Position numbers and translations under genes: made by a program
The notes under the pieces: generated by a model
The model's database searches: none
What the model was told of the DNA's origin: nothing
Seen by the model: the letters and a program-made list of their open reading frames with translations, nothing else
Shown: piece after piece, positions 24,395 through 37,679 of the stretch
How the letters are laid out: every line of letters starts with the position of its first letter
How positions within the stretch are numbered: the stretch's first letter is position 1
Assembly: GCA_009783695.1 (NCBI GenBank)
Contig: WRCY01000019.1
Coordinates: 1-37,679, forward strand
Reading direction: 5' to 3'
From: Oscillospiraceae bacterium
GTDB taxonomy: Bacteria; Bacillota; Clostridia; Oscillospirales; Ruminococcaceae
DNA: 37,679 bases

Positions 24395-24486
24395 TATCCG
24401 AAATAATTATTAAACAAATCGCGAAAGAGCCTTGACAACAGGGGTCATTGAGCGGTATGATTACCATAGCGCGAAAGGAGGAAATC

Positions 24487-26292
24487 ATGCAAAACAACCT
24501 AACACAATTACTTAGCGACAGTATGACGCCGAAGTTCGCCGTTTCGTATCTTCGTGTGTCGTCCAGAGTTCAGGCTGAACGCGGCGGAGGGGACGATGAA
24601 GGGTTCTCAATCCCCGCCCAGCGTGAAGCAAACAAACGTAAAGCTCATTCAATGGGTGCGATTATCGGCAAGGAATTTGTTGACAGAGGGGCGTCCGCGC
24701 GCTCCGCCGACAGACCGGAGCTTCAAAAAATGCTTGAATTTATCAAGGAGAACAAAGACCGCGTGGATTATGTCATAGTCCACAAGGTTGACCGCCTCGC
24801 CCGAAACCGTGGCGATGACATCGACATCACTCGCGCCTTGACCGATGCGAATGTTCAACTCGTTTCCGCTTCTGAGAGCATTGATAACTCGCCGTCTGGA
24901 ATGCTTCTGCACGGTATTATGAGCTCAATCGCGGAATTTTACTCACAAAACTTGGCGAACGAGGTCAAGAAAGGTTTGCACGAAAAGGTTAGAAACGGCG
25001 GCTCGGTCAGTAAAGCACCAATAGGCTATGTTAATGTTAGAAAAACAGATGACAAGGGACGCGAGGAGCGAACGGTTGAAATTGACCCGGAACGTGCGCC
25101 TCTTGTGAAGATGGCTTTTGATGAATACGCAACAGGAAATTGGTCGCTCAATTCATTAGCTGAACACTTGGCTGATCTTGGATTGGCAACCATTCCCAGA
25201 CCACGGTTGCCGGGCAGACTGATAGACAAGAAAATATTACATAATGTTTTCAATAATACTTTTTATAAAGGTATTATAACGTATGCCGGTGCTGAATACA
25301 AAGGCAAATATCAGCCGATAGTAGATGAGGCAACTTGGGAGAAAGTGCAAGAAATTCTACGCAGCCATATAAACGGTGAGCGAACTCGGATTCATAACCA
25401 TTATCTAAAAAGCACTGTCGTTTGCGGCAAATGCGGAGCTCGTTTGCTCATAACCAATGCTAAGTCCGGGTCGGGTACAATATATCCCTACTTTGTCTGC
25501 TCTGCAAAGCATTGTAAAAGGAGTAAGTGCGACCAAAAATCCGTCATAATTGATGAAGTTGCACATAAGGTTGAAAAGTGGTATGAGAGGATTGAGTTTT
25601 CACCGAATTTTCGGACATTCATGCAAAAATGGGTAGAAACACAAATTGAAAAGTTCGCCGGAGAATCAAAGACCGAACTTGAGCGTTTGAAAAAGAAAAA
25701 AGACAAGTTGGAACGCGAACAAGTGAAGCTTCTGCAAGCACATTATTCCGACGCAATCCCTCTGCCGTTGCTTAAAGCCGAACAAGACCGGATAAGCAAG
25801 GAACTTAGAAACGTTAACAGCCAGATGGATGCGTATCAAGGCGAGTATATTAAAGCATCCGTCGTCTTGAGTGATGCTTTTAAGGTATTAGATGATTGCG
25901 GAAGAACATATAGAGAGTCTGATGATTACGATCGCAGATGCCTCAACCAAGCTATTTTCAAGCAAATTAAAGTTTATGAAGACTTAACCCTCGCCGTGGA
26001 TTACGCCGAACCATTTGCCACGATTCTCAATTCGGATACACTCACGTTAAAGAAATGTTTTGAGCAGGAATATCGAGATAAATGCGATGAGCAACCTAAG
26101 TCGGTTGCTCATTTCTTAAATCGCCAAACCCAAACCACCGCAAAACCTTTAAATTTTTTTGGTAAAAGTTTGAGTAAGGACTGTTTGGTGGAGATAAGGG
26201 GATTCGAACCCCTGACCTTCTGTCTGCCAGACAGACGCGCTCCCAGCTGCGCCATACCCCCGTCAACTACCTCATCATATAGCCGATTATAA
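24487..26292 (+). CDS. Large serine recombinase, probable integrase of the element
   Basis: A 601-aa recombinase. The catalytic domain starts 'FAVSYLRVSSRVQAERGG' with Ser25, and has 'HKVDRLARNRGDDIDI' and 'GMLLHGIMSSIAEFYSQNL'. A recombinase domain follows (about 175-290, 'APIGYVNVRK'), then a zinc ribbon (Cys pair 'CGKCGARL' and later 'CSAKHCKRSKC') and a coiled-coil region (about 400-460). Start ATG 24487 has AAAGGAGG upstream; an earlier TTG does not. The last ~28 residues (VEIRGFEPLTFCLPDRR...) are encoded by the antisense of a tRNA-Ala gene and are not family sequence. The gene may have gained this tail on integration. Confidence 0.92.
   Translation: MQNNLTQLLSDSMTPKFAVSYLRVSSRVQAERGGGDDEGFSIPAQREANKRKAHSMGAIIGKEFVDRGASARSADRPELQKMLEFIKENKDRVDYVIVHKVDRLARNRGDDIDITRALTDANVQLVSASESIDNSPSGMLLHGIMSSIAEFYSQNLANEVKKGLHEKVRNGGSVSKAPIGYVNVRKTDDKGREERTVEIDPERAPLVKMAFDEYATGNWSLNSLAEHLADLGLATIPRPRLPGRLIDKKILHNVFNNTFYKGIITYAGAEYKGKYQPIVDEATWEKVQEILRSHINGERTRIHNHYLKSTVVCGKCGARLLITNAKSGSGTIYPYFVCSAKHCKRSKCDQKSVIIDEVAHKVEKWYERIEFSPNFRTFMQKWVETQIEKFAGESKTELERLKKKKDKLEREQVKLLQAHYSDAIPLPLLKAEQDRISKELRNVNSQMDAYQGEYIKASVVLSDAFKVLDDCGRTYRESDDYDRRCLNQAIFKQIKVYEDLTLAVDYAEPFATILNSDTLTLKKCFEQEYRDKCDEQPKSVAHFLNRQTQTTAKPLNFFGKSLSKDCLVEIRGFEPLTFCLPDRRAPSCAIPPSTTSSYSRL
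26186..26261 (-). tRNA. tRNA-Ala (anticodon GGC)
   Basis: A 76-base cloverleaf on the minus strand: acceptor stem GGGGGTA with TATCTCC, discriminator A and encoded CCA. D-arm GCGC/GCGC, anticodon stem TCTGT/ACAGA with loop CTGGCAG (anticodon GGC), T-arm AGGGG/CCCCT with TTCGAAT. The G3-U70 pair, the alanine identity element, is present. It overlaps the 3' end of the recombinase gene on the other strand. Confidence 0.95.
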
Positions 26293-26314
26293 CATAACCG
26301 CAGTTATGTTTCAA
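26286..26314 (-). promoter_or_regulatory. Promoter of tRNA-Ala
   Basis: On the minus strand TTGAAA (26314-26309), a 17-base spacer and TATAAT (26291-26286), about 25 bases before the mature tRNA end. The box is part of TTATGTTATAAT, a word repeated at 26363 and 26510. Confidence 0.75.
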
Positions 26315-26362
26315 TGTTCTCGGGAACCGTTCAAAAATTTATTTTCAGTAACGGGTGAGGTT

Positions 26363-26515
26363 ATTATAACATAATTTCAATCGTCGTAGGCGATTGCGGC
26401 GGTAAAACCGCCGACGGCGCAAACGCGCCGAATTATTGTTGAAATAAAAATGTTGTTTCGGCAAAGCCGAAACCCGCACGCAAGCGTTTACGCTTGTGTT
26501 GGCATTTTTATTATA
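26363..26515 (-). repeat. Multi-hairpin repeat element, copy A
   Basis: Read on the minus strand the element begins at a TATAAT box (26515) and ends at another (26363). It contains a closing stem 26443-26452/26503-26512 around two inner hairpins, then hairpins GGCGC/GCGCC, GGCGGT/ACCGCC and CAATCGTC/GGCGATTG, most with 3- or 4-base loops. About 80 bases of it (ATTTCAACAATAATTC onward) match copy B at 36702-36782 with about four changes, three of them in hairpin arms or loops. It lies between thiN and tRNA-Ala. Confidence 0.85.
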
Positions 26516-26538
26516 ACATAAATTCCCCCGTTTGTCAA
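26510..26538 (-). promoter_or_regulatory. Consensus promoter at the 3' end of thiN reading into repeat copy A
   Basis: On the minus strand TTGACA (26538-26533), a 17-base spacer and TATAAT (26515-26510), a full match to consensus with an additional extended -10 TG. The -35 box overlaps the thiN stop codon and the -10 box is the first part of the repeat element. It would transcribe the element and possibly tRNA-Ala. Confidence 0.7.
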
Positions 26539-27167
26539 TCCCTTGCCTCAATCACAAGCAACATTCCTTTTTCCACCGAAACCGATGCCTCTGCGCCCGT
26601 CATAACGTTACTGACGCCGCGTCCCTCGCCGAGCTTCAGACGGGCGTTTTCGAGCGGATACTTCAAGCCCCGTGTCGTCACGCCGGCGCAGTCTGAGAGC
26701 GGTACAATCGAGATAAGCCCGCCTTTCGCGCCGCTGATTTCAAGCTGTGAGTCGGTTATTCTGATTTTATTATTTTCGTCAATGATTTCTGCTTTTTCAC
26801 CTCGCGCAAGACAGTTTTTAAGCATGAAAATATTAGTCAGCATATGGTCGGCGCGCGTGCCTGTCGCGCCGATGATTAGAATATCCTGCGCGCCTGCTTC
26901 CCGTGCGTGATTGAGCGCGATTTCCGTGTCGGTCTGATTTTTTTCGCTCGGATAACAGGCGGTTTTTACGTTATCCGGAACTTCGCCGATTGAATCGAAG
27001 TCGCCGGCTATTAAATCTGCCGGAAGATTCATTCGGACAGCGTGATTATAGCCGCTGTCCGCACAGATAATCATTTCTGCACCGAACTGCAGAATCCGCT
27101 CTTTTATATATTCGTAATCGCTTATTTTACCGCCGCTGATAATTAACGTACGCATGATTATTCTCAT
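26535..27167 (-). CDS. thiN: Thiamine pyrophosphokinase
   Basis: A 210-aa cytosolic enzyme that transfers pyrophosphate from ATP to thiamine, making thiamine diphosphate. The pattern is clear: 'IICADSGYNHAVRMNLPADLIAGDFDSIGEV' (substrate and metal site), 'YPSEKNQTDTEIALNHA' and 'ILIIGATGTRADHMLTNI'. The C-terminal beta domain has 'ISIVPLSDCAGVTTRGLKYPL'. The ATG at 27167 overlaps the stop of a 22-codon leader ORF (TAATG) and has AAAGGAC just upstream; a second ATG at 27155 is less well placed. In many Firmicutes thiN follows rpe/rsgA; here it stands alone and divergent from rodA. Confidence 0.92.
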   Translation of the reverse strand: MRIIMRTLIISGGKISDYEYIKERILQFGAEMIICADSGYNHAVRMNLPADLIAGDFDSIGEVPDNVKTACYPSEKNQTDTEIALNHAREAGAQDILIIGATGTRADHMLTNIFMLKNCLARGEKAEIIDENNKIRITDSQLEISGAKGGLISIVPLSDCAGVTTRGLKYPLENARLKLGEGRGVSNVMTGAEASVSVEKGMLLVIEARD

Positions 27168-27235
27168 TAAGTCCTTTCTTCACAAAAGCGGAATGAAAAC
27201 AACGTTTTCCCCGATTCAATTGTGTTTATTTTCAA
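27167..27235 (-). CDS. 22-aa leader peptide coupled to thiN, inside a repeat of the AAAGGAC family
   Basis: TTG 27235 has GAGGTG 5-6 bases upstream. The peptide reads MKINTIESGKTLFSF and on, and its TAA overlaps the thiN ATG by one base. Its DNA is a copy of the repeat containing CGGGGAAAACGTTGTTTTC followed by TTTGTGAA-(G/A)AAAGGAC. A similar ORF beginning MKIN and containing GKT...LF occurs before the kinase gene at 29937. Translation is plausible but unproven. Confidence 0.45.
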   Translation of the reverse strand: MKINTIESGKTLFSFRFCEERT

Positions 27236-27256
27236 ACTTTCACCTCGCTTTTTTAC

Positions 27257-27285
27257 AGTATACCATAATTCGATTGACGGCGCAA
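27257..27285 (-). promoter_or_regulatory. Promoter of the thiN leader and thiN
   Basis: On the minus strand TTGCGC (27285-27280), a 17-base spacer and TATACT (27262-27257). It overlaps the divergent rodA promoter, so the two polymerases would compete for the same 45 bases. Confidence 0.65.
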
Positions 27286-27302
27286 CCATAATATGCTATA
27301 CT
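27274..27302 (+). promoter_or_regulatory. Promoter of the rodA-like gene, giving a leaderless mRNA
   Basis: TTGACG (27274-27279), a 17-base spacer and TATACT (27297-27302). The usual start point, seven bases after the -10 box, is 27309, the A of the ATG. No Shine-Dalgarno sequence fits in between. Confidence 0.75.
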
Positions 27303-27308
27303 CTACTT

Positions 27309-28463
27309 ATGAAGCGTGTTTTAAAATTTTTACCGGCATATTTTAAGCGACTGGACAAGCTGCTGATTCTGCTTTGTCTTGGTGCCTGCCTGTTCAGCGC
27401 GTATATGCTTTACAGTATGGTGAGCAACGAGGTGAGCCCGTTTGCAACCGAACGTCATTATCAAATGCAAATCGCTATGGCGGTTCTGGGGCTAATCGCA
27501 GCACTGATAATTGCGGCGGTGAATTATAAATACATCTCGAAATTCTGGTACGTCGGCGCTGTCTGCGGGACCGGGCTCATGCTGCTGCTTCACACATCGC
27601 TCGGCGTAGGGCCGCAGGGCAGCGAGGAAATAAACTGGCTGAACTTCGGATTCACCACCATACAGCCCTCTGAATTTCTTAAAGTTTTCTACGTTATAAC
27701 GTACTCGACGCATCTTGCAAAAATCGGAAAGCGCATGAATCAAATACCGCACTTGGCACTACTGGCGGCGCATACAGCCGTTCCCTGCCTGCTTTTGTTG
27801 TCGCGGGGCGATTTCGGCACTACGCTTGTTTTCCTGCTGATTACTTTCACTATGCTTTTTATCGCGGGGCTGTGGTGGCGGTATGTTGCGGTGATTCTCG
27901 GTTTAGTGCCCGTTGCGGCGTTCGTGATGTGGAACTATGTGTTTAAAAACTATCATAAACTGCGCATTTTAGTGCTGATTGACGAAGAGGTACGCGAGGC
28001 GGAGATGCTTAACTTCTTTCACCAGCAGCATCGCAGCCTGATTGCCATAGGCTCAGGAGAACTGACGGGCAGGGGTCTTTTCGGCGGCGAATATATTTAT
28101 ATCCCCGAGTATCAGACCGACTTCATCTTCTCATACATCGGCATGACGCTCGGCTTTGTCGGGTGTGTGGCGGTGTTGTGTCTGATAATGTTTATATTAA
28201 TCCGCATACTCGGCAACTGCCTCGTCGCCAAGGACACGCTCGGAAAATATATCTGCGCGGGCGTTTTCGCGATGTTCCTCTATAACACTATTATAAATGT
28301 CGGTATGACGCTTGCGGTCATGCCGGTGATAGGGCAGCCGCTGCCGCTTATCGGCGCGGGCGGGAGCTCGGTACTGGCTTATTTTATGGGAATCGGGCTC
28401 GTGCTTTCCGTCCGTGCCCATAAGGATAAAAAATATCACATGTTTTATACGGAGAAAGACTGA
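27309..28463 (+). CDS. RodA/FtsW/SpoVE family peptidoglycan polymerase
   Basis: A 384-aa polytopic membrane protein of the SEDS family, which polymerises glycan strands from lipid II with a class B penicillin-binding protein. Ten or so hydrophobic segments are visible. Family motifs include 'INWLNFGFTTIQPSEFLKVF', 'SRGDFGTTLVFLLITF', 'QTDFIFSYIGMTLGFVG' and 'PVIGQPLPLIGAGGSSVLAYF'. ATG 27309 gives the usual N-terminus ('KRLDKLLILLCLGACL'). It coincides with the predicted transcription start, so translation would be leaderless. I cannot decide between RodA and FtsW from sequence alone; absence of cell-division genes nearby slightly favours RodA. Confidence 0.88.
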   Translation: MKRVLKFLPAYFKRLDKLLILLCLGACLFSAYMLYSMVSNEVSPFATERHYQMQIAMAVLGLIAALIIAAVNYKYISKFWYVGAVCGTGLMLLLHTSLGVGPQGSEEINWLNFGFTTIQPSEFLKVFYVITYSTHLAKIGKRMNQIPHLALLAAHTAVPCLLLLSRGDFGTTLVFLLITFTMLFIAGLWWRYVAVILGLVPVAAFVMWNYVFKNYHKLRILVLIDEEVREAEMLNFFHQQHRSLIAIGSGELTGRGLFGGEYIYIPEYQTDFIFSYIGMTLGFVGCVAVLCLIMFILIRILGNCLVAKDTLGKYICAGVFAMFLYNTIINVGMTLAVMPVIGQPLPLIGAGGSSVLAYFMGIGLVLSVRAHKDKKYHMFYTEKD

Positions 28464-28464
28464 C

Positions 28465-28516
28465 GGACAATTGACAATTGACATTAACAATTAACAATTA
28501 ACAATTGACAATTTAA
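28465..28516. repeat. AATTGACAATTAACAA-type repeat between rodA-like gene and galactokinase-like gene
   Basis: The longest copy of the family: several tandem words (ACAATTGACA, TTAACAA three times) over 52 bases. It fills most of the 75-base gap. The other copies are at 389-425 and 2206-2242 inside the tail genes, so both host and phage DNA carry the family. Confidence 0.75.
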
Positions 28517-28538
28517 CATGAAAGGTTTGTAAGAAATT

Positions 28539-29801
28539 ATGAAACAGCCATTAATTTTAAAGCCGGAAGAATTGTATCCCGCGATGGAAATCGAGTCCAA
28601 GCGCGGCAGATTTGAGACGGCAATCGCCGAGTATAAAAAGCATTTCGGCGAGGATACCGGCAAAAATATCCGGCTTTTTTCGGTTCCGGGAAGAACCGAG
28701 GTCAGCGGCAACCACACCGACCACAACTGCGGCAAAGTCTTGGCGGCAAGTATAAGCCTTGATATAATTGCAGTCGTGGAGCCGATTGAGGCGAATAAAA
28801 TTGTCGTGAAATCCAAGGGTTTCGACGAGAATGGCGTCTGGCTCGACAACCTTGACGCAGTGCCCGAGGAAAAAGGAACGTCCGAAGCGCTTATTCGCGG
28901 CGTTGCGGCGGGCTTTAATAAAGCCGGTTATAAAATAGGCGGCTTCAAGGCGTACACGACCTCGGAGGTGCTCCCCGGCTCTGGAATGTCGAGCAGCGCG
29001 GCGTTTGAGGTTATGGTCGGGACTATTTTATCAAGCCTTTATAACAACGGCATGATTGACCCGCAGAGAATCGCGAAAATATCGCAGAGAGCCGAGAATG
29101 AATACTTCGGGAAGCCGTGCGGGCTCTTAGACCAAATCGCCTGCGCGGTTGGAGGGTTCATCGTTATTGACTTCAAGGACGCCGGCTCGCCGATAATAGG
29201 CAGGGTGGCGAGCGATGCGTGGGGCTCGTTCGGGCATGACCTGTGCATAATCAACACCGGCGGCTCTCATGCGGGAATGAACGACGAGTATGCCGCTATT
29301 CCGCATGAAATGCGCGATATTGCATCATACTTCGGTGTCGGCTGCCTGCGGCAGATTGCACGAAAGGACATCGAGCTCAACACGAATATCCTTCGCAAGG
29401 AGTTTGGTGACCGTGCGGTGCTGCGCGCACTGCACTTCTTTGAGGAGAACAACCGCGTTGACAAGCTTATACACGCACTTGAAAATCGCGACTTCGAGAA
29501 CTTTTTGCGGTACATAAACGATTCGGGAGGCAGTTCGTTCAAGTACCTGCAAAATATTTATACGTCCGGCGAGGTCAAGCATCAGTCGCTTGCCGTCGCG
29601 CTCAATGCCGCCGAATACGCGCTCGGCGGGAAAGGGGCCTGCCGCGTGCACGGGGGCGGCTTTGCGGGGACGGTGCAGGCGTTTGTGCCGCATGAAATGC
29701 TGAAAGTTTTTAAGTTTAATCTTGAGCGGATTTTCGGGGTCGGTTCGTGCTATGTGCTGAGCGTGAGGGGGCACGGGTGCACGGAGGTGGAGCTGGATTG
29801 A
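28539..29801 (+). CDS. Galactokinase-like GHMP kinase
   Basis: A 420-aa GHMP kinase. The galactokinase signature is at 50-64 but altered: 'GRTEVSGNHTDHN' where the usual form is GR(V/I)N-x-IGEHTDYN, so the sugar-contacting Glu is replaced by Asn. The ATP loop 'LPGSGMSSSAAF' is at 145-156, the catalytic Asp198 is in 'GLLDQIACAVGG' and the C-terminal 'RVHGGGFAGTVQAFV' is motif 3. It would phosphorylate galactose or a related sugar at C1. The start has only AAAGG upstream, a weak site. No other galactose genes are nearby, so the true sugar is uncertain. Confidence 0.82.
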   Translation: MKQPLILKPEELYPAMEIESKRGRFETAIAEYKKHFGEDTGKNIRLFSVPGRTEVSGNHTDHNCGKVLAASISLDIIAVVEPIEANKIVVKSKGFDENGVWLDNLDAVPEEKGTSEALIRGVAAGFNKAGYKIGGFKAYTTSEVLPGSGMSSSAAFEVMVGTILSSLYNNGMIDPQRIAKISQRAENEYFGKPCGLLDQIACAVGGFIVIDFKDAGSPIIGRVASDAWGSFGHDLCIINTGGSHAGMNDEYAAIPHEMRDIASYFGVGCLRQIARKDIELNTNILRKEFGDRAVLRALHFFEENNRVDKLIHALENRDFENFLRYINDSGGSSFKYLQNIYTSGEVKHQSLAVALNAAEYALGGKGACRVHGGGFAGTVQAFVPHEMLKVFKFNLERIFGVGSCYVLSVRGHGCTEVELD

Positions 29802-29860
29802 CTTAAGCTGCGCAGAATACATATGATGTGAAGCATTACCGATTTTGGAGGGTTATAAGT

Positions 29861-29920
29861 TTGAAAATAAATGATACCGAGCCGGGGAAAACGAAACTTT
29901 TTATTATTAGTTGGTGTTGA
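29861..29920 (+). CDS. 19-aa leader peptide before the APH-fold kinase
   Basis: TTG 29861 has GGAGGG 8 bases upstream; the stop is 16 bases before the kinase ATG. The peptide MKINDTEPGKTKLFIISWC shares its start and the GKT...LF part with the thiN leader peptide. The DNA between 29876 and 29927 is a worn copy of the AAAGGAC repeat (CGGGGAAAACG ... AAAGGAC). Confidence 0.4.
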   Translation: MKINDTEPGKTKLFIISWC

Positions 29921-29936
29921 AAGGACATGATGAAAA

Positions 29937-30731
29937 ATGATTGAACCGGAAAGAGAACTTACAGGCGGCAATGTATCAACTGTGACTACAGACGGCAGTG
30001 TCGTTTATAAAGACCGGAAACCGCAAAGCGCAACCATTCAGCGATTATTACGGCATTTGCAATGCAAAGGCATTGATTTTTGTCCGAAGCCATTGGGGTT
30101 TGATAATAGGGGCAGGGAAATGCTGTCGTTTATGCCCGGAAATACTATTGACGATTTTCCGGGTGTCAGTTTGATTACCGATAAAATCGAAACTGTTAAA
30201 CAAGCCGCTTCCATGCTGCGTAAGCTCCATGACGCTACAATGGATTTTACAAAACAGCCTGATGATGTATGGTTTTTGCGTTATGACGGTGATTTACCTA
30301 ATGAAGTAATCTGCCATAATGATTTCGCGCCGTATAATATTACTTTTGATAACAATCTGCCGGTTGGACTGATTGATTTTGATACAGCGTGTCCCGCGCC
30401 CAGAGTGTGGGATATTGCTTATGCCGTTTATCGGTTTGTACCGCTCGGCGAATCTGTCTACGACTGTGTATCGGGAGCTTATCGGGATTACGATAAGTCA
30501 AAAGACTGCGAGGAAAGAAAGATTCTGCTTGGTGTATTTTTAAATTCATACGGGTTTAATGATGATATTGAAGAATATATAGTACAGCGGTTGTCAGCTC
30601 TTGTAAATTTATTTGATGAAGAATGTGCCAAGGGCAATCAGGTATTCATTAAAATGAAGCAGGAGGGTCATCAGGAATTTTATATCAGGGAAATAGAATT
30701 TATCAAGAAGAATTATTATGATTGGATATAG
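29937..30731 (+). CDS. Aminoglycoside phosphotransferase-fold (APH) kinase
   Basis: A 264-aa small-molecule kinase. The catalytic loop 'ICHNDFAPYNI' has D129 and N134, and the metal-binding 'GLIDFDTACPAPRVWDIAYA' has D147/D149, standard for the APH family. The N-lobe is short ('GSVVYKDRKPQSATIQRLL'). Substrates in this family range from antibiotics to choline, homoserine or sugars, so resistance should not be assumed. AAAGGAC lies 11 bases before the ATG and belongs to the repeat family described at 27167-27235. Confidence 0.82.
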   Translation: MIEPERELTGGNVSTVTTDGSVVYKDRKPQSATIQRLLRHLQCKGIDFCPKPLGFDNRGREMLSFMPGNTIDDFPGVSLITDKIETVKQAASMLRKLHDATMDFTKQPDDVWFLRYDGDLPNEVICHNDFAPYNITFDNNLPVGLIDFDTACPAPRVWDIAYAVYRFVPLGESVYDCVSGAYRDYDKSKDCEERKILLGVFLNSYGFNDDIEEYIVQRLSALVNLFDEECAKGNQVFIKMKQEGHQEFYIREIEFIKKNYYDWI

Positions 30732-30824
30732 TGTTAATTACATTCAACATATTCTTAGTAAGGGCATGGATTTTTACTTACCCGAACTTGAGTTTATAAT
30801 ATTTTAAATATTTTCAAAAAACAC

Positions 30825-30853
30825 TTGCATTTTTATTTTATTTATGATAAAAT
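30825..30853 (+). promoter_or_regulatory. Promoter of rplS
   Basis: TTGCAT (30825-30830), a 17-base spacer and TAAAAT (30848-30853). The upstream gap 30732-30824 is AT-rich and shows no gene. Confidence 0.75.
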
Positions 30854-30859
30854 AATATC

Positions 30860-30959
30860 GTATGTTTTGAGCGTTCATTAAAGAACGCGTTGAACGCCGC
30901 ACAAGACGGTCCTCTGCCGCGCTGTAAGAACGTCTTAAAATGAAAGGAATTATATCAAA
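30860..30959 (+). ncRNA. Candidate L19 leader (rplS 5' untranslated region)
   Basis: A leader of about 100 bases with two stems: GCGTTC/GAACGC (30871-30888) and AAGACG/CGTCTT (30903-30936), followed by GAAAGGA and the rplS ATG. Ribosomal protein L19 leaders that respond to the protein itself are known in Firmicutes (Rfam L19_leader). The match here is by position and hairpin layout, not by a model search. Confidence 0.5.
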
Positions 30960-31304
30960 ATGGACGCACTTAAATTAATAGCGCAGGACAGCATAAAAGA
31001 GAACCCGTCTGTATTCAACATAGGCGATACGGTTCGCGTGCACGTCCGCATACAGGACGGGAACAAGTCCAGAATTCAAATGTTTGAGGGAATCTGCATC
31101 GCCAAGAAGCACGGCGGCATAGAGGAAACCTTTACGGTTCGCAGGGTTGCGCACGGCGTAGGAGTTGAAAGGGTTTTCCCGCTGCACTCGCCGTCGGTTG
31201 ACAAGGTCGAGGTTGTAAGGGCGGGTAAGGTTCGCAGAGCCAAACTGTACTACCTGCGCGGTAAAGTCGGTAAAGCCGCCAAGGTTAAATCGAAATTTAA
31301 TTAA
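30960..31304 (+). CDS. rplS: 50S ribosomal protein L19
   Basis: A 114-aa protein at the 30S-50S interface. The sequence is clearly L19: '[35 protein letters not shown]', '[51 protein letters not shown]'. The length is standard. It heads the group rplS-lepB-ylqF-rnhB-yraN. Confidence 0.97.
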
Positions 31305-31310
31305 TTGTAG

Positions 31311-31344
31311 GGGCGGGCTGGCGCAATGCGCGAAATGCCCGCCC
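31311..31344. repeat. GC-rich palindrome after rplS
   Basis: GGGCGGGC (31311-31318) pairs with GCCCGCCC (31337-31344) and encloses a smaller hairpin GCGC-AAT-GCGC (31321-31331). No T-run follows, so it is a weak terminator at best. GTAGGGGCGGGC-type palindromes are dispersed in many Clostridia genomes (general knowledge); here there is one copy. Confidence 0.55.
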
Positions 31345-31452
31345 GTATAAATTAACCGGGGACTTCGCCGCTGCGCACACGGCGCAATCATGATTAAATT
31401 AAATACTGTGAAATAGTTTTCAATTAAAACAACGATATTTCGGGAGAGTTTT

Positions 31453-32037
31453 ATGGCGAAAAAAGTGCTGAACGAGATTTATGAATGGACGGAGAGTATA
31501 CTTTTCGCCCTTATACTGGTGATTGTTATATTAACCTTTATCGCCCGCGGAACGAGGGTTGACGGTGACTCTATGCTGCCTACGCTTGAGGATACGCAGT
31601 TTCTGGCGATTTCACACCTGTATACGCAGCTGCGCCACAACGACATAGTGGTCGTGTTCGCCAAAGATATAGACGGCGCCCTGGCTGACGGAAGAACTGT
31701 TATAAAGCGCGTAATCGGGCTGCCCGGGGATACGATTAGGATTGATGCGGGCGCGGGACTCGTTTACCGCAACGGCGAGGCGCTGCCTGTTGAGATTCGG
31801 GACGGCATGATATATGAGGACGGTCACGTCATAAATGATGTCACAAAAGCAAGGTTTGACATGCCGGAGGGCGATGAGTGGACTGTGCCCGAGCATCATA
31901 TATTCGTGATGGGCGACAACCGCAACAACTCCAAAGACAGCCGCAGCAAAGATGTCGGCATGATTGACACGAACTATGTAATCGGGCGGGTGATTTTCAG
32001 AGTGACGCCGTTTTCGGAACTCGGGCGGGTTGTATAG
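31453..32037 (+). CDS. lepB: Signal peptidase I
   Basis: A 194-aa membrane-bound serine protease that removes signal peptides from exported proteins. There is one N-terminal membrane segment at 15-31. The catalytic Ser40 is in 'RVDGDSMLPTL' and Lys85 in 'RTVIKRVIGLPGD'. The C-terminal box 'HIFVMGDNRNNSKDSRS' is conserved. Start ATG with CGGGAGAG upstream. The length is typical of Gram-positive SPase I. It is followed by a tandem repeat array before rbgA. Confidence 0.95.
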   Translation: MAKKVLNEIYEWTESILFALILVIVILTFIARGTRVDGDSMLPTLEDTQFLAISHLYTQLRHNDIVVVFAKDIDGALADGRTVIKRVIGLPGDTIRIDAGAGLVYRNGEALPVEIRDGMIYEDGHVINDVTKARFDMPEGDEWTVPEHHIFVMGDNRNNSKDSRSKDVGMIDTNYVIGRVIFRVTPFSELGRVV

Positions 32038-32040
32038 GTG

Positions 32041-32282
32041 TTGTTTTCACAAACCGTTTGTGAAAAAAGGACTTTAGGTCTGACAAAAAACAGTTAAATC
32101 GGGGAAAACGTTGTTTTCATGACCGTTTGTGAAAAAAGGACTTTAGGTCTGGCAAAAAACAGTTGAATCGGGGAAAACGTTGCTTTCATGACCGTTTGTG
32201 AAAAAAGGACTTTAAGTCTGACAAAAAACAGTTGAATCGGGGAAAACGTTGTTTTCATGACCGTTTGTGAAAAAAGGACTTA
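32041..32282 (+). repeat. Tandem array of the AAAGGAC leader repeat (3.5 copies of 69-70 bases)
   Basis: Units start at 32041, 32111, 32180 and 32249. The first is 70 bases, the next two are 69 and the last is cut where the rbgA start begins. Each unit has the GAAAAC-GTT-GTTTTC hairpin, a second hairpin (perfect in unit 1: TTCACAAA-CCG-TTTGTGAA) and AAAGGAC, a Shine-Dalgarno-like end. Units 2-4 differ by few bases. Only the last AAAGGAC is followed by a gene. Confidence 0.92.
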
Positions 32283-32290
32283 TTAAAAAT

Positions 32291-33118
32291 ATGAATATAC
32301 AATGGTATCCCGGACATATGACCAAGACCCGCCGCATGATAGAAGCGGATATAAAGCTTGTGGATGCGGTCGCGGAGCTTACCGACGCGCGCTGCCCCGA
32401 GGCGAGCAGAAACCCCATTCTTGATGAGCTGATAAAAGACAAGCCGAGGATAATTATACTTAACAAATCTGATTATGCCGATGAACAGACAACGAAAAAC
32501 TGGAAAAGCTATTACGAAGGCAAGGGCGCAGCCGTGCTCATCTGCGACTGCAGAAGCGGCAAGGGCGTAAATTATTTTGTGCCGCTGCTTAAAAAGAAGC
32601 TTTCACATATAATAGAAAAGCGCCACGCGCGCGGCATGAAAGGGCTTTCCCTGCGCGTGATGGTGGTGGGGATTCCGAATGTCGGAAAATCGTCTTTTAT
32701 CAACCGCATGGCGAATTCCCGCAAGGTTAAAGTTGCCGATAAGCCCGGCGTTACCCGCGGAAAACAGTGGGTAACAATTGACAGGGAAATTGAGCTTCTC
32801 GATACGCCCGGGATACTGTGGCATAAGTTCGGCGACCCCGAGGTCGCAAAGAAGCTCGCTTTCACGGGCGCGGTCAAGGACGAAGTCATGGATGGCGCGG
32901 AGCTTGCAGCCGAGTTTATTTCAATGTACCCTGATGCATTAAAAGAGCGGTATGGCGCAAATACACTGGAAGAAATCGCTGTTAACAGAAAAATGCTTGC
33001 TTCGGGCGGCGTGCCGGATATATCGCGCGCGGCGATTACGCTGCTTGACGAGTTTCGTGCGGGGAAGCTGGGGAGAATATCGCTTGAACAGCCCGCCGAG
33101 CCGGCGTTCCGAATATAA
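32291..33118 (+). CDS. rbgA: Ribosome biogenesis GTPase YlqF/RbgA
   Basis: A 275-aa circularly permuted GTPase needed for late assembly of the 50S subunit. Motif order is G4 first ('[11 protein letters not shown]', about 55-65), then G1 '[13 protein letters not shown]' at 127-139, then G3 'LLDTPGI'. This permuted order is the family hallmark. The N-terminus '[17 protein letters not shown]' is also typical, which supports ATG 32291 over GTG 32267. The AAAGGAC site 11 bases upstream comes from the tandem repeat array. Confidence 0.95.
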
Positions 33119-33135
33119 TTAAGGAGAAAACTTAT

Positions 33136-33756
33136 ATGGACGGCAGTGCCGCACTTTTCGATTTTGACAAACAAAAACGAAGCATATACGGCATTGTTTG
33201 CGGCGTCGACGAGGCGGGGCGCGGCCCGCTTGCCGGCGCGGTCTTCGCGGCGGCGGTGATTCTGCCTGCGGACGTGATTATAGAAGGGCTCGACGATTCA
33301 AAGAAGCTGAGCGAAAAGAAGCGGGAACATCTCTACAGCGAAATCATCGTAAAAGCCGCTGCCTATGCGATTACACAGGCAAGCGTTGATGAAATAGAAG
33401 AGCTGAACATCCTGCAAGCTGCAATGCTTGCGATGAGGCGGGCACTTGAAGCGCTTGCATTAAATATTAAACCCGATTATGCGTTGATTGACGGCAATCA
33501 TCTTCCGAAAACCGCAATCCCCTGCGAGGCTGTGGTTAAGGGCGACGCTATATCCGCGAGTATCGCGGCGGCTTCGGTTTTGGCGAAAGTTGCACGCGAC
33601 CGCGAAATGCTTGAACTCGCACTGGAATACCCGCAGTACGGCTTTGAAAAACACAAAGGCTACGGCACAAAGCTGCACTGCGAAGCGTTGCGGGAGTATG
33701 GAATGTGTGAAGTTCACAGGAAGAGTTTTTTAAAGAAACTTGAAATGAAATCCTGA
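33136..33756 (+). CDS. rnhB: Ribonuclease HII
   Basis: A 206-aa enzyme that cuts the RNA strand of RNA-DNA hybrids and removes misincorporated ribonucleotides. '[14 protein letters not shown]' near residue 22-35 has the first Asp-Glu of the active site; the later 'DGNH' and '[17 protein letters not shown]' and '[13 protein letters not shown]' are conserved. Start with AAGGAG upstream, 17 bases after rbgA, so likely one transcript. Confidence 0.95.
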
Positions 33757-33759
33757 CTA

Positions 33760-33803
33760 ATCGGGGAAAACGTTCTTTCATAGCGCATTTGTGAAGAAAG
33801 GAC
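33760..33803 (+). repeat. Single copy of the AAAGGAC leader repeat before yraN
   Basis: It contains TCGGGGAAAACGTT, then CTTTCATAGCGCATTTGTGAAG and AAAGGAC, matching the array at 32041-32282 and the thiN leader copy. The yraN ATG follows 11 bases after AAAGGAC, the same spacing as at rbgA. Confidence 0.8.
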
Positions 33804-33814
33804 ATATTGAAAAT

Positions 33815-34222
33815 ATGACAGATAAGAAGAAAAAAGGTGATTTCGGCGAGGGAAAAGCTTGTTTATACCTCGAAAATAAGGGTTATAATATAGTCGCGCG
33901 GAATTTCAGCACTAAAACAGGCGAGATTGATATAATCGCGGAACATTCCGAAAAGGAGCGGCTTGCGTTTGTTGAGGTGAAAACCCGTAAGCTGATGGGA
34001 ATGGGCAGACCCTCCGACGCTGTGAATAAATCCAAACAACATAAAATTATTAAAACCGCACAAGTTTATCTGTTGCGGAATCCGACCGAAAAATATATAG
34101 GTTTTGATATAATTGAAGTCACTGTGACGGACAGCATAAACCCTGATGTAATCGAGATTAATCACTTTGAAGATGCGTTTATTGACGATAGCGCGAGCAG
34201 GGGGCAAGTTTTATTTATATAA
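33815..34222 (+). CDS. yraN: YraN/UPF0102 family endonuclease-like protein
   Basis: A 135-aa protein of the UPF0102 group, which has a restriction endonuclease-like fold and an uncertain cellular role in DNA metabolism. Family sequence: 'GKACLYLENKGYNIVARNFSTKTGEIDIIAEH' (Glu-Ile-Asp core), 'LAFVEVKTRK', and 'AVNKSKQHKIIKTAQVYL'. Start ATG 33815 was chosen over the in-frame GTG 33791 that lies inside the repeat. Its stop is within the terminal arm of the multi-hairpin repeat at 34217. Confidence 0.92.
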   Translation: MTDKKKKGDFGEGKACLYLENKGYNIVARNFSTKTGEIDIIAEHSEKERLAFVEVKTRKLMGMGRPSDAVNKSKQHKIIKTAQVYLLRNPTEKYIGFDIIEVTVTDSINPDVIEINHFEDAFIDDSASRGQVLFI

Positions 34223-34396
34223 TTGTTTAACTTAAAAAGCATGAAATGCTTTTTAAGTTCGATGCGCTTTGCGCATCGGTCGGCTCTGCCGACAAACGAC
34301 GTATGAAATCGTAACTTCCGCGCCTGTGGCGCGGTATTCGCCCAACGGGCGAATATATGAAACAGTTTTGCTGTTTCTTAAGTTAAACGATTATAT
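34217..34396. repeat. Multi-hairpin repeat element between yraN and thrC
   Basis: A 19-bp terminal inverted repeat (34217-34235 with 34378-34396, one wobble) encloses six hairpins in a row: a 14-bp stem near 34230-34260, then CGATGCGC/GCGCATCG, GTCGGC/GCCGAC, CCGCGCC/GGCGCGG, ATTCGCCC/GGGCGAAT and GAAACAG/CTGTTTC, nearly all with 3-base loops. Terminal arms contain TATAAT, as in copies A and B, but the interior differs. It forms a many-armed cruciform in principle. Confidence 0.85.
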
Positions 34397-34412
34397 GATT
34401 TGAGAGGTTCTT

Positions 34413-35909
34413 ATGTTCTACAACAGCACGCGGAATTCATCAGTAAAAGTCAGCTCCGCTGAGGCGATTATCAAGGGCTTATCGGACGAGGGGGGCTTGT
34501 TTGTGCCTGAAAAAATACCGCCGCTCACCGAGAGCGACATGAAATACATCGGCAGGATGAATTATGCCGAGAGGGCGCATTTAATACTGAAAAAGTTTCT
34601 AACGGATTTTACGGACGATGAATTGAAAAAAGCAGCGCAGAGTGCATATTCAAACAACTTTGCAACTCCTAACGCTATGCAGTTATCTAAGCTGTACCCC
34701 GATTGTTACGTACTCGAGCTGTTTCACGGACCTACCTGCGCGTTCAAGGACATGGCGCTGCAGCTTCTGCCGCACTTGATGACGGCTTCCGCGGCGAAAT
34801 GTGAAGCCGCAAGGGACAGAAAAATTGTGATTCTTACCGCTACCTCCGGCGATACCGGCAAAGCTGCGCTTGAAGGCTTCCGTGACGTCGCAAACACAAG
34901 CGTGACAGTGTTTTACCCCGAGGACGGCGTCAGCCTTATGCAGAAGCGGCAGATGACTACGCAGGAGGGTGAAAACGTGCGTGTCTGCGCGGTTCGCGGA
35001 AACTTCGATGATTGCCAGACGGGCGTAAAGGAAATCTTCACGGACAGTGAATTAATCGCGGAGCTGGCTGAGAAAAACATGATTTTTTCGAGTGCGAATT
35101 CGATTAACTGGGGACGGCTCGTTCCGCAGATTATCTATTATGTTTCGGCGTATGCGGAGCTGCTTGAAGCAGGTGAAATCAAACAGGGAGAGAGCGTTAA
35201 TATCTGCGTGCCGACAGGAAACTTCGGTAATATCCTGGCGGCGTATTATGCAAAGCAGATGGGGCTGCCGCTCGGCAGGCTAATTTGTGCGTCAAACTCG
35301 AATAATGTGCTCACCGACTGCATAAACACGGGCGTTTATGATAAGAACAGGGAGCTTATTCTTACAGCTTCGCCGTCGATGGATATACTCGTTTCATCGA
35401 ATTTTGAGCGGCTGCTCTATCATCTTTCTGATAATGACGACAATGTGATAAACGCGCTGTTCACCGACTTAAAAGAAGAAAGCAAATATATATTAAACGA
35501 TAAAGTACGCAAAAAACTCAACGGTCTTTTCTACGGCGGCTGGTGTGATGAAGCCGAAACCAAGCGGACGATTAAAAAGGTTTCAGATGAATTCGGCTAC
35601 CTTATGGACCCGCACACGGCGGTCGCTTATAAGATTTATGCCGATTATAAAAAATGTACCGGCGACACGGCGAAGACGATTATCACCGCTACCGCGAGCC
35701 CTTATAAATTCTGCTCGGTTGTCTGCCGCGCACTCGGGCAGATGCCGGAGGCGGATGAGTTTATCATTGCAAAAAAGTTAGAAGCGTTAACTAATACCGA
35801 AATGCCCGCGCCTTTAGCCCGGACGGAAAGTATGCCGGTTCGGTTTACGGATTCAGTGGAGAAAAGCGAGATGAAACGTGCAGTTTCCGGGATTATTAAA
35901 ACGCTGTGA
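34413..35909 (+). CDS. thrC: Threonine synthase
   Basis: A 498-aa PLP enzyme that turns O-phosphohomoserine into threonine. The PLP-binding Lys112 is in 'FHGPTCAFKDMALQLLP'. 'ILTATSGDTGKAALEGF' binds phosphate, and 'NICVPTGNFGNILAAYYAKQMG' and 'DPHTAVAYKIYADY' are family motifs. Length fits the longer, bacterial/yeast-type class. GAGAGG precedes ATG. The stop overlaps the next gene by 4 bases. No other threonine genes are adjacent. Confidence 0.95.
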   Translation: MFYNSTRNSSVKVSSAEAIIKGLSDEGGLFVPEKIPPLTESDMKYIGRMNYAERAHLILKKFLTDFTDDELKKAAQSAYSNNFATPNAMQLSKLYPDCYVLELFHGPTCAFKDMALQLLPHLMTASAAKCEAARDRKIVILTATSGDTGKAALEGFRDVANTSVTVFYPEDGVSLMQKRQMTTQEGENVRVCAVRGNFDDCQTGVKEIFTDSELIAELAEKNMIFSSANSINWGRLVPQIIYYVSAYAELLEAGEIKQGESVNICVPTGNFGNILAAYYAKQMGLPLGRLICASNSNNVLTDCINTGVYDKNRELILTASPSMDILVSSNFERLLYHLSDNDDNVINALFTDLKEESKYILNDKVRKKLNGLFYGGWCDEAETKRTIKKVSDEFGYLMDPHTAVAYKIYADYKKCTGDTAKTIITATASPYKFCSVVCRALGQMPEADEFIIAKKLEALTNTEMPAPLARTESMPVRFTDSVEKSEMKRAVSGIIKTL

Positions 35910-36580
35910 GCTTGTATGCAATCGCTGATTTGCACCTGTCGATGGGATGCCTGAAACCCATGGACATCTTCAAAGGCTGGGAAAATCATGCCGGGCGGCT
36001 TCGCGAGAACTGGAACAGGATTGTAAGCAATAGCGATACAGTTGTGATTGCGGGAGATATTTCGTGGGGCATGAGCTTAGAGGAAGCGCTTCCCGACTTA
36101 AAGTTTATTGACAGCGAGCTGAACGGGAAGAAGATTATTATTAAAGGCAACCACGATTACTGGTGGAGTACGCTTGCGAAACTTAACGCATATAATTTTA
36201 ACAACATCAGCTTTCTGCACAGAAATGCGTTTTTAGTGGAAAACATCGCCGTTTGCGGGACTCGCGGGTGGTTCAATGAAGACGACCAAAAGCGCAGCGA
36301 AAAATTACAGAAGCGTGAAGAACAAAGGCTTGAATCCTCGGTGAAATGCGCGGTTGAATATGGAGGAGAAGTTGTTGCCTTTTTGCATTATCCGCCGATT
36401 TTCGGCGGGTTTGAGAATTACGGCCTGATTGACGTACTTCAAAAGTATGGCGTGAAGCGCTGTTATTATGGACATCTGCACGGTACAGCGCATAAAAGCG
36501 CAGTTCTCGGCATGCGCTACGGGATAGAATTCGCCTTAATTTCAGCGGATTTTGTCGGATTTGCACCTGTTCGTATATAA
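35906..36580 (+). CDS. Metallophosphoesterase (calcineurin-like)
   Basis: A 224-aa hydrolase. Metal ligands are seen in order: 'AIADLHL' (DxH), 'VIAGDISWG' (GD), 'IIIKGNHDYWW' (GNHD), 'FLHYPP' and 'GHLHG'. The substrate is unknown; members act on cyclic nucleotides, phospholipids or proteins. GTG 35906 overlaps the thrC stop, so it is coupled to thrC. Confidence 0.9.
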   Translation: MSLYAIADLHLSMGCLKPMDIFKGWENHAGRLRENWNRIVSNSDTVVIAGDISWGMSLEEALPDLKFIDSELNGKKIIIKGNHDYWWSTLAKLNAYNFNNISFLHRNAFLVENIAVCGTRGWFNEDDQKRSEKLQKREEQRLESSVKCAVEYGGEVVAFLHYPPIFGGFENYGLIDVLQKYGVKRCYYGHLHGTAHKSAVLGMRYGIEFALISADFVGFAPVRI

Positions 36581-36596
36581 ATTTAATAAAAAGTAC

Positions 36597-36625
36597 TGGA
36601 AATTTTTGTTTTTTTGTGCTATAAT
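36597..36625 (+). promoter_or_regulatory. Promoter of tig
   Basis: TGGAAA (36597-36602), a 17-base spacer and TATAAT (36620-36625) with an extended -10 TGC. The -10 box is the first part of repeat copy B, so the repeat forms the tig leader. Confidence 0.65.
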
Positions 36626-36782
36626 AAAATCACGCACTCAAACGTAAAACGTTTGGAACCCGCTTTGCGGGTGTTTTCGGCAAAGCCGAAACGGTGATTT
36701 TATTTCAACAATAATTCGGCGCGTTTGCGCCGCCGGCGGTTTTACCGCCGCAATCACCTGCGGCGATTGAAATTATGTTATA
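36620..36782 (+). repeat. Multi-hairpin repeat element, copy B, forming the tig leader
   Basis: Stems: closing stem ATAAAATCAC/GTGATTTTAT (36624-36633, 36694-36703) around CAAACG/CGTTTG, ACCCGC/GCGGGT and TTTCGGC/GCCGAAA; then CGGCGC/GCGCCG, GGCGGT/ACCGCC and CAATC.CC/GG.GATTG. It is an inverted relative of copy A (26363-26515): the right half is nearly identical, while the left closing stem differs in sequence but still pairs. It lies between the promoter and the ATG. Confidence 0.85.
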
Positions 36783-36816
36783 TTTAAAAAGATATATTAA
36801 AAGAAAGGATTTTAAA

Positions 36817-37679
36817 ATGGAAATCATCAAAAACAACAAGACGGAGAACGCGGTTGAGGTTGAATTCAAGGTGAGTCCCGAAGAGTTCGAGCAGGCGCTC
36901 GAGAAGACCTATCAGAAAGAAAAGAACCGTATAACTATTCCGGGCTTCAGAAAAGGGAAAGCTACCCGCAAAATGGTTGAAAAACAGTACGGCGAGAACG
37001 TTTTTTATGAAGACGCGATAAACAGCCTATATAAAAAAGTGGTTACCGAGGTAATCGACGAGTTAAAATTAGATGTGGTTGACGTGCCGGAAACCGAGGT
37101 TGTTTCAGTGGAAAGGGAAGAGGGCATCGCGTTTAAAGTGACTTTCACCGTTAAACCCGATGTCAGCATTAAGGATTACTTAGGCGTGGAAGTCGACTAT
37201 AAGGTCGCCGAGGTTAGCGAGGACGACATTGCGGGCAAGCTTAAGGAAATGCAGCTTCGCGGCGCGCGCATTATCGACGTTGAAAACCGCGGGGCCGAAA
37301 TGGGCGATACCGTAACGTTCGATTTCAAGGGCTTTTGCGACGGCGAAGCGTTCAAGGGCGGCGAAGCCGAGAACTTTAATCTTGAGCTTGGAAGCGGAAG
37401 ATTTATTCCCGGGTTTGAAGAGCAGATTTGCGGCAAGAATATAGGCGAGGACTTTGATGTAAACGTCACTTTCCCGGAAGAATACCAGGCAAAGGAGCTC
37501 GCAGGGAAAGAAGCCGTGTTTAAGTGCAAAATTAACGGCATTAAGGGCAGGGAGCTCGTGGACATCGACGATGAATTCGCCAAGGACGTCAGCGAACACG
37601 ACACGCTTGACGAGCTTAAAGCGGAGATTAAGGATAAGCTCACCGAGGAAAACAAAAATGCGGCTGACATGGAGTTTGA
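36817..37679 (+). CDS. tig: Trigger factor, 3' end outside window
   Basis: Ribosome-associated chaperone with peptidyl-prolyl isomerase activity. 287 codons are present and the frame is open at the right edge. The ribosome-docking loop 'GFRKGK' is at 43-48. The FKBP-type domain covers about 150-240 ('GDTVTFDFKGFCDGEAFKGG', 'SGRFIPGFEEQICG'). After it begins the C-terminal arm ('DIDDEFAKDVSEHDTLDELKAEI'). ATG 36817 has AGAAAGGA upstream. Expression is probably affected by the hairpin-rich leader (copy B). Confidence 0.95.
   Translation, partial: MEIIKNNKTENAVEVEFKVSPEEFEQALEKTYQKEKNRITIPGFRKGKATRKMVEKQYGENVFYEDAINSLYKKVVTEVIDELKLDVVDVPETEVVSVEREEGIAFKVTFTVKPDVSIKDYLGVEVDYKVAEVSEDDIAGKLKEMQLRGARIIDVENRGAEMGDTVTFDFKGFCDGEAFKGGEAENFNLELGSGRFIPGFEEQICGKNIGEDFDVNVTFPEEYQAKELAGKEAVFKCKINGIKGRELVDIDDEFAKDVSEHDTLDELKAEIKDKLTEENKNAADMEF

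Follow-up and report, generated by a model that had tools for sequence, protein, structure and literature searches.

The two copies of a multi-hairpin repeat, A and B, that lie in a 37,679-nucleotide stretch of an Oscillospiraceae bacterium genome (contig 19, WRCY01000019.1, of assembly GCA_009783695.1; hereafter the window) belong to a modular repeat family whose left edge is a TATAAT box. We conclude that its units, LR and C, are small non-autonomous mobile elements that target the extended -10 box of promoters (TGnTATAAT), enter it in one direction only and regenerate the box, a reading to which we assign a probability of about 0.72. The copies form one family with covarying stems, lie in a promoter-like context with a fixed direction, stack head to tail and are missing from corresponding promoters of relatives. 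Their movement would depend on an enzyme acting in trans.

A modular repeat family with TATAAT at its edges

The genome carrying the window (G000; 2.23 Mb in 97 contigs, assembly rated 94% complete) was compared with other genomes, numbered likewise, of which G023, G012, G043, G048 and others are relatives within the genus. As the initial annotation had described, copy A occupies 26363-26515 on the minus strand and copy B 36620-36784 on the plus strand, and their right halves are nearly identical, with 5 of 82 positions differing. That annotation had left room for a family of only two copies and, alternatively, had anticipated many copies with covarying stems and a fixed TATAAT edge. The latter is what was found: blastn with B as query returned 33 matches in G000, with identity between family copies reaching 98%, and a covariance model of the right half (module R), built from 19 copies of this genome and one from G048, recovered 25 R copies in G000 plus one overlap on the other strand. 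A third module, C, adjoins copy A (26286-26368) and had 15 matches in G000.

When modules L, R and C were located in the G000 loci analysed and the matches grouped by hand, 31 arrays resulted, in addition to four fragments that hold the start of C only; a degraded L copy at C11:34955 was excluded from the count. The architectures were LR (15 arrays), L alone (5), LRC (5) and CLRC (2); C alone, CLR, LRLR plus a fragment, and a deleted L-R-C were found once each. LR units measure ~160 bp and C units ~80 bp, and L occurs in two subtypes, L1 and L2. Within arrays, the TATAAT that ends one element is the start of the next. The right end, which reads TGTTATA(AT), is the point where arrays chain, and module C ends in TTGAAA-17-TATAAT, i.e. 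in a -35 and a -10 box of its own. Short, present in 31 arrays and with no room for a transposase gene, these units in that respect resemble miniature inverted-repeat transposable elements (MITEs). A third left-module subtype, TATAATAAAAATGCCAAAACGCGCTGCC.., was seen after the LR copy in the downstream flank of locus L011 (G000:C4 ~32850-32978).

The initial annotation knew of no named element with this layout, and a known RNA family was rejected as an identity. At the Rfam gathering score, the window gave a tRNA only, eight loci of G000 gave tRNA and a neighbouring NiCo riboswitch, and eight related loci gave nothing, with no match to the element itself in any of them. A permissive scan of seven loci added, beyond tRNA, sub-threshold matches only; these were mir-2542 (28.7 bits versus 60) and RT-17 (26.6 versus 40.4), overlapping the G017 and G048 elements.

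Promoter-like context and empty sites

The fixed TATAAT edge reported by the initial annotation holds, and its nature had been overlooked: it is placed as the host's own -10 box, with the -35 box outside the repeat and the promoter empty in relatives. The DNA upstream of the left TATAAT is site-specific and differs between arrays. A TTG stood at a spacer of exactly 17 bp in 20 of 31 arrays (1.7% at random places in the same DNA; flank shuffles gave a mean of 0.56 arrays and at most 4/31), and allowing 16-18 bp raised this to 25/31 (5.0% at random places). At least four of six matches to the -35 box were present in 22/31 arrays (shuffles: mean 4.7, maximum 14), and TGn preceded TATAAT in 29/31. 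Among the fragments holding only the start of C, one of four had TTG at 17 bp. When the right edge was read backwards as a control for direction, TTG at 16-18 bp was found in 0/23 arrays, the eight arrays without an intact right GTTATA being left out.

This asymmetry bears on whether the repeats are ordinary MITEs derived from an insertion sequence (IS), which duplicate a TA or TATA target and owe their position and direction only to selection against other insertions. We consider that account unlikely, even though the elements end in TATAA..TTATA, have TATA on both sides, and are short, numerous and intergenic. TATA is palindromic, yet the -35 occurs at 25/31 left edges and at none of the 23 right edges read backwards, a direction left unexplained by a DDE transposase and a palindromic TATA duplication alone. 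The target's TG recurs at the right end as well, and no partner IS was identified in a search for Y1 transposases alone. Furthermore, both -35 and TG are commoner than at intergenic TATAATs of G023: in 1.18 Mb of that genome, with intergenic DNA defined by a crude open reading frame (ORF) mask, 123/394 TATAATs had such a -35 and 81/394 had TGn. Of the 81 with TGn, 61 had a -35. A preference for TGnTATAAT alone would therefore bring elements to promoters, and contact with RNA polymerase is not needed.

A codirectional ORF started within 200 nt of 27/31 arrays, 26 of them with a ribosome-site-like motif. The four others are the tRNA-Ala array of copy A and those at C23, C22 and C32, the last of which has a tRNA nearby on the opposite strand. 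At C23 (L008:1663-1755), a NiCo riboswitch begins at the right end of the LR copy, so that the element lies between the -10 box and the riboswitch.

The features of the two copies in the window are the following.

26533-26538, minus strand: -35 box TTGACA of the putative promoter holding copy A, directly behind a thiN-like gene (TTGACA, 17 bp, TATAAT; 12/12; TG before the -10)
26510-26515, minus strand: -10 box TATAAT, the left edge of copy A
26431-26515, minus strand: module L of copy A (subtype L2, shortened), closing stem AATAAAAATG/CATTTTTATT
26363-26444, minus strand: module R of copy A, three hairpins inside a closing stem, end ATGTTATAAT
26286-26368, minus strand: module C at the right end of copy A, with the TATAAT joint in common
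26286-26314, minus strand: promoter-like site in module C (TTGAAA, 17 bp, TATAAT; 11/12), directed toward tRNA-Ala
26186-26261, minus strand: tRNA-Ala (GGC), the gene behind the copy A array
36597-36602, plus strand: -35 box TGGAAA of the putative promoter holding copy B (17 bp spacer; 10/12)
36620-36625, plus strand: -10 box TATAAT, the left edge of copy B
36620-36716, plus strand: module L of copy B (subtype L1), closing stem ATAAAATCAC/GTGATTTTAT
36703-36784, plus strand: module R of copy B, end ATGTTATATT, the right -10 copy, one base off TATAAT
36817-37679, plus strand: start of the trigger-factor-like gene behind copy B, which runs past the window end

The gene behind copy B, which we take to be trigger factor (tig), has matches in 65/71 genomes of the genus, and the gene upstream of copy A is presumably thiN-like.

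Both sites were found without the element in relatives. The tig promoter reads ..ACTGGAAATTTTTGTTTCTTTGTGC[TATAAT]TAAAAAAGATATT.. in G023, while in G000 the same promoter is followed by the element and then by ATGT[TATATT]TAAAAAGATATATT; this site is empty in G023, G012 and G069. At the copy A site, G023 and G012 have TTGACA-17-TAAAAT or -TACAAT and then tRNA-Ala, with no element between. Across the genome, 20/31 arrays had an upstream match in the stretches of G023 compared, of which 14 reached to within 140 nt of the insertion. At these 14 comparable sites, a script found the promoter without the element in 8 and an element edge in none, and neither the LRC query nor the R model had a match anywhere in the G023 genome. 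By eye, the site also looks empty for the two insertions at the C17 divergent promoter and for C45. The promoter thus probably predates the element at comparable sites.

The junctions place the insertion joint probably within TATA(AT), which stands on both sides of the element and once in empty sites, a pattern that fits a target duplication or equally a recombination core. At tig, the base ahead of TATA is C at the left end in G000 and in G023, and T at the right end. By eye, any inverted repeat of the ends is short and imperfect, left TATAA-TAA against right (reverse complement) TATAACATAA.

Several observations weigh against insertion into existing -10 boxes. Fewer than four of six -35 matches were present in 9/31 arrays; C29 and C31 had no -35, and C63 only TTTTCT. 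A divergent ORF started within 200 nt upstream of 20/31 arrays, ten of them with a ribosome-site-like motif, and the right-end TATAAT is altered in 4/25 R copies. No conserved promoter was found by script in G023 at 6/14 comparable sites, though by eye one is present at C17 L; at C23, C31, C58 and C63 G023 showed no promoter that matches, and at C25 it has a different-looking one. The joint falls short of proof because G012 and G069 have T ahead of TATA at tig and because the -10 at the empty copy A site is TAAAAT or TACAAT in G023 and G012. Lastly, one genome per species was compared, so that movement is deduced from absence in other species.

Other repeats and paired sites were noted in the same genome. 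A different repeated 5' leader, around CATTTC..TGAAGAAAGGACTTAATGAAAA, includes the ribosome site and start codon (L029, L082, L083). Palindromic, two-way promoter-like sites with TGTTATAAT on both strands occur at L084 (G000:C7:30228-30270), G000:C12:4178-4220 and G000:C26:4704-4749. In C12 and C26 the repeats occupy one arm; a similar site in C17 has them at both. Among about the first 100 of 181 sites, other TGTTATAAT pairs on the same strand of G000 were by eye promoter-like or coding, and the paired-box pattern at 60-90 bp was found 9 times in G000, twice in G013 and in none of 23 other genomes. In the window itself, positions 1-26292 suggest by eye that a prophage or comparable element has integrated at the tRNA-Ala 3' end, with phage-tail-like genes and a large serine-recombinase-like ORF (24448-26292) running through the tRNA-Ala.

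Covariation and the role of the fold

The 150-base stretches of A and B folded with z-scores of -5.1 to -6.4 on both strands, and 0/200 shuffles did as well in each of the four folds. Covariation was measured on 24 full LR copies, omitting C60 (internal duplication), the deleted C3 and partial copies. The structure comprises six hairpins together with two closing stems, and 94.6% of its cells are paired (shuffled 91.0). Changes on both sides of a pair were found in 16/63 pairs (shuffled 8.4) and 77 cells (shuffled 28.9), and none of 500 shuffles matched the paired fraction, the both-side counts or the covariation score, so that the covariation already suspected by the initial annotation goes beyond chance. 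Sliding the pairing partners abolished the signal, leaving 1-10 both-side cells. By eye, the C22 and C31/C60 copies of module C also carry both-side changes.

The left closing stem, seen by the initial annotation to have changed on both sides between A and B while still pairing, keeps its pairing across the 24 copies, where a loss of pairing would have spoken against that annotation: 97.9% of its cells are paired. The stem occurs as two sequences, AATCAC/GTGATT and AATGC/GCATT, with the same register. Three of its neighbouring pairs changed on both sides, in 9 cells each. Three results run counter to a simple picture of conserved pairing. First, the count of further standard pair types is no higher than in shuffles, 357/500 of which reach it. 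Second, helix 3 is paired in 67.2% of cells only, because L1 and L2 are out of register there. Third, two of the 24 copies (L016, L021) are mosaics with mixed arms in which one closing-stem pair is lost.

The initial annotation had proposed that the folded form is under selection or is copied by a structure-dependent process. Covariation alone is no proof of selection, since template switching in imperfect palindromes can yield the same changes. Such switching, a process that repairs imperfect palindromes as outlined in part of PMC8794818, would generate covariation with no selection on the fold, and it addresses the covariation only, not the insertion pattern. In its favor, many both-side changes lie in tight-loop hairpin stems. 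Both-side changes in the outer stem of L span an interior of ~60 nt and characterise two whole subtypes, which is harder for short-range switching. We regard template switching as a doubtful explanation of the whole signal that may account for part of it.

A second possibility is that the repeats are structured 5' leader RNAs, cis-regulatory and kept for the folding of the mRNA, for which a place behind the -10 box is the ordinary position. The codirectional ORFs behind 27/31 arrays, the covarying stems and an excess of G-T pairs over A-C mismatches (30 versus 17, with 19 others; helix 3 excluded) are in its favor, the strand asymmetry of these mismatch classes being not decisive. Nevertheless, the downstream genes look unrelated by eye, the copies are up to 98% identical and absent at the same promoters in relatives, and the order of modules in stacks varies. 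By the usual rule, a transcript starts ~7 nt past TATAAT. Most of the 5' arm of the outer stem thus lies upstream of the predicted start, so a transcript from the edge promoter could presumably not form that stem, which makes selection on it at the RNA level less likely. Regulatory leaders are for these reasons a quite improbable explanation, and we read the fold of the proposed mobile elements as probably acting mainly as DNA.

Relatives, proposed mechanism and known systems

Copy B as query had no match in 40 other genomes, and a longer query had weak matches in 6/70 other genomes of the genus, the one in G006 lying in apparently coding DNA. The R model matched twice in G048, once in G012 and twice in G043, with weaker matches in seven more genomes; one G048 match arises by construction because that copy was used in the model, and some of the weaker matches are other hairpin clusters off TATAAT (G067; G043 C1). 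TATAAT is the start of the copies in G048 (2), G012, G006 and G019, and TTG lies 16-18 bp ahead of it. The G013 copy has TTTACA at 17 bp, the G017 copy TTGACA at 17 before TATAAC, and the two G068 copies checked have TTTACA at 17 and no more than TTTATT, respectively. In G014, an R-model copy lacks a -35, and a second edge in that locus shows TTGACA at 17. The L-type copies of G043 have other right hairpins, and 3/4 of them have TTG 16-18 bp before TATAAT.

The edge of module C, TGNTATAATAACCTYA, was found in 62/394 genomes of the order, and the control columns for the reversed pattern showed one match. Among 86 such sites read, from loci of 36 of the 62 genomes, the inner AACATT motif was present in 46 (13 genomes), and the remaining 40 can be put down to plain promoters, remnants or chance. 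Of the C-type copies standing first in their array, a set that includes members of this genus, 11/33 had TTG at 16-18 bp (random 5.6%) and 9/33 at least four of six -35 matches (random places 11.9%), and internal units had TTG in 0/13, a split that is imperfect in that three units of one G014 array counted as first. In G083, G014 and G018, units of ~108 or ~160 bases are repeated in tandem. Two results here weigh against the proposed reading: the link to the -35 is weaker outside the genus, and in G073 (L101:1354-1640) a C-like element at TATAAT, GGATATAATAAACC, interrupts the D arm of the second of two tandem tRNA-Arg copies, with an intact copy adjoining. This insertion favors sequence targeting over recognition of an active promoter.

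Viral contigs had no match to the R or the C pattern. The short C edge occurred there in at least 119 stretches; of 80 read, the inner motif was present in none by a strict and in one by a wider definition, and most are chance. One query of plasmids found none. Three further loci were recorded. At L102 (G017), a C-like element has the same 28 bases, TTGACAAGTCAATCTTTTTATGTTATAA, on both sides, so that the entire stretch from -35 to -10 is present twice. Another hairpin element, beginning GGGGCGTGATGTCCC, occurs at L218 (G006) and L226 (G043), in G006 directly after TATAAT behind TTGACA-17. An unannotated fecal phage scaffold, L432 (MT835596.1), carries a C-like module behind TTGACA-18-TATAAT, between a gene that is sortase-like by eye and another gene.

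In the mechanism that we propose, insertion would proceed along the promoter's direction with the joint inside TATA(AT). At the left junction, the host -35 and TGn would be kept while the element's first bases restore TATAAT; at the right junction, the element's own ATGT would be joined to the target's TATA(AT). The old promoter would then transcribe the element as a 5' leader, with a second extended -10 ahead of the gene, which module C would turn into a complete second promoter by supplying a -35. Every right end would be a new target, giving head-to-tail stacks such as LRC, CLR, CLRC and LRLR, and the fold would be kept mainly as DNA, as the single-stranded or cruciform substrate of a putative recombinase. 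The best fit is an att-like joining, in which a circle or folded strand with a joint containing TGTTATAAT would recombine with host TGnTATAAT; in a circle, the joint would be ATGTTATAAT-AAAATCAC. Such joining accounts for direction, the shared TG, regeneration and stacking.

The search for a mobilising gene covered Y1 transposase (PF01797) only and found none in G000, which weighs against the proposal. Single-strand transposition by HUH/Y1 enzymes (REP-RAYT or IS200/IS605-like), 3' to a short target and in fixed direction with hairpin ends, agrees with the direction, the target motif retained at the left, the hairpins and the Y1 matches in 20/71 genus genomes. The Y1_Tnp domain was not found in G000, G023, G043, G048, G012 or G017, in a search that was positive in 5/14 control genomes; it is present in other carriers (G014, G019, G073), with no clear link between Y1 and carriers overall. 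We therefore rejected Y1/RAYT as the mover and hold this route to be very unlikely. Two further candidates were rejected. The right end of C (TTGAAACATAA CTGCGG TTATGTTATAA) resembles a dif site of the Xer system; at tig, host sequence seems to run past TGn into TATA, which is ill suited to a dif crossover. The right end GTTATAA does not, by eye, fit the GTTRRRY box of integron attC sites.

More tentatively, and with less than even confidence, the repeats may belong to an order-wide superfamily of two-domain hairpin elements for which the -10 box is both integration site and own end and promoters are multiplying attachment sites, perhaps through an enzyme acting on the strand opened at -10. 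Its features would be a left edge TATAATAACCT or TATAATAAAAT, an inner motif AACATTG or TTTCAACAATAA, and a right edge ATGnTATAAT. If insertion into -10 boxes is correct, rebuilding the box would give an element a simple means of persisting in a dense genome with no silencing of genes; promoters and structured leaders would have been added to dozens of genes, including a tRNA gene and a riboswitch leader; and the family would offer a directly testable case of insertion guided by promoter DNA or its opened strand.

As MITE-like elements the repeats are of a known kind, and the proposed target, a -10 box, is new. A few queries of the open-access literature, covering titles and the starts of abstracts, found no description of elements inserting into -10 boxes. 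Yeast Pol III genes offer a well-known example of mobile elements that land where transcription starts. REP/BIME sequences, palindromes that lie between genes in a fixed sense, are probably mobilised as single strands by RAYT (Y1) transposases; the repeats here share the palindromes, the intergenic position and the fixed sense, and differ in that no Y1 transposase was found in G000. Integron cassettes form head-to-tail arrays through folded attC sites with the boxes GTTRRRY and RYYYAAC, a likeness that extends to arrays and folded sites and not to the right end GTTATAA, a comparison made with no integrase search.

The nearest known kinds are Correia elements and pneumococcal BOX repeats, and we file the repeats under neither. 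Correia elements (CREE) of Neisseria, according to the portion of PMC2649163 used here, are up to ~157 bp long, hairpin-forming, non-autonomous, often upstream of genes and often in TA targets. Strain FA1090 has 123 CREE, of which 15 carry potential Snyder and 18 potential Black promoters (PMC2649163). The likeness lies in size, hairpins, lack of autonomy and position, and the Snyder and Black promoters embody the same two ideas at a minority of sites, as far as the same portion and that of PMC10969869 go. Here, by contrast, the -35/-10 pre-exists in relatives at 8/14 sites and a TTG placed as a -35 is present in 25/31 arrays; the ends are TATAATAAAAT or TATAATAACCT rather than the TATAG[CT]GGATTAA of CREE (PMC2649163). 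BOX repeats of Streptococcus pneumoniae and S. suis consist of boxA, boxB and boxC in varying permutations, are folded and clustered and are regarded as parasitic (PMC3049150, in part). Compared by that description, in which insertion at a -10 box does not appear in the part drawn on, they resemble our family as modular, interspersed, folded repeats. The difference is one of assembly: a single BOX element is itself built from its modules, whereas in our family complete elements are linked through TATAAT joints that they share.

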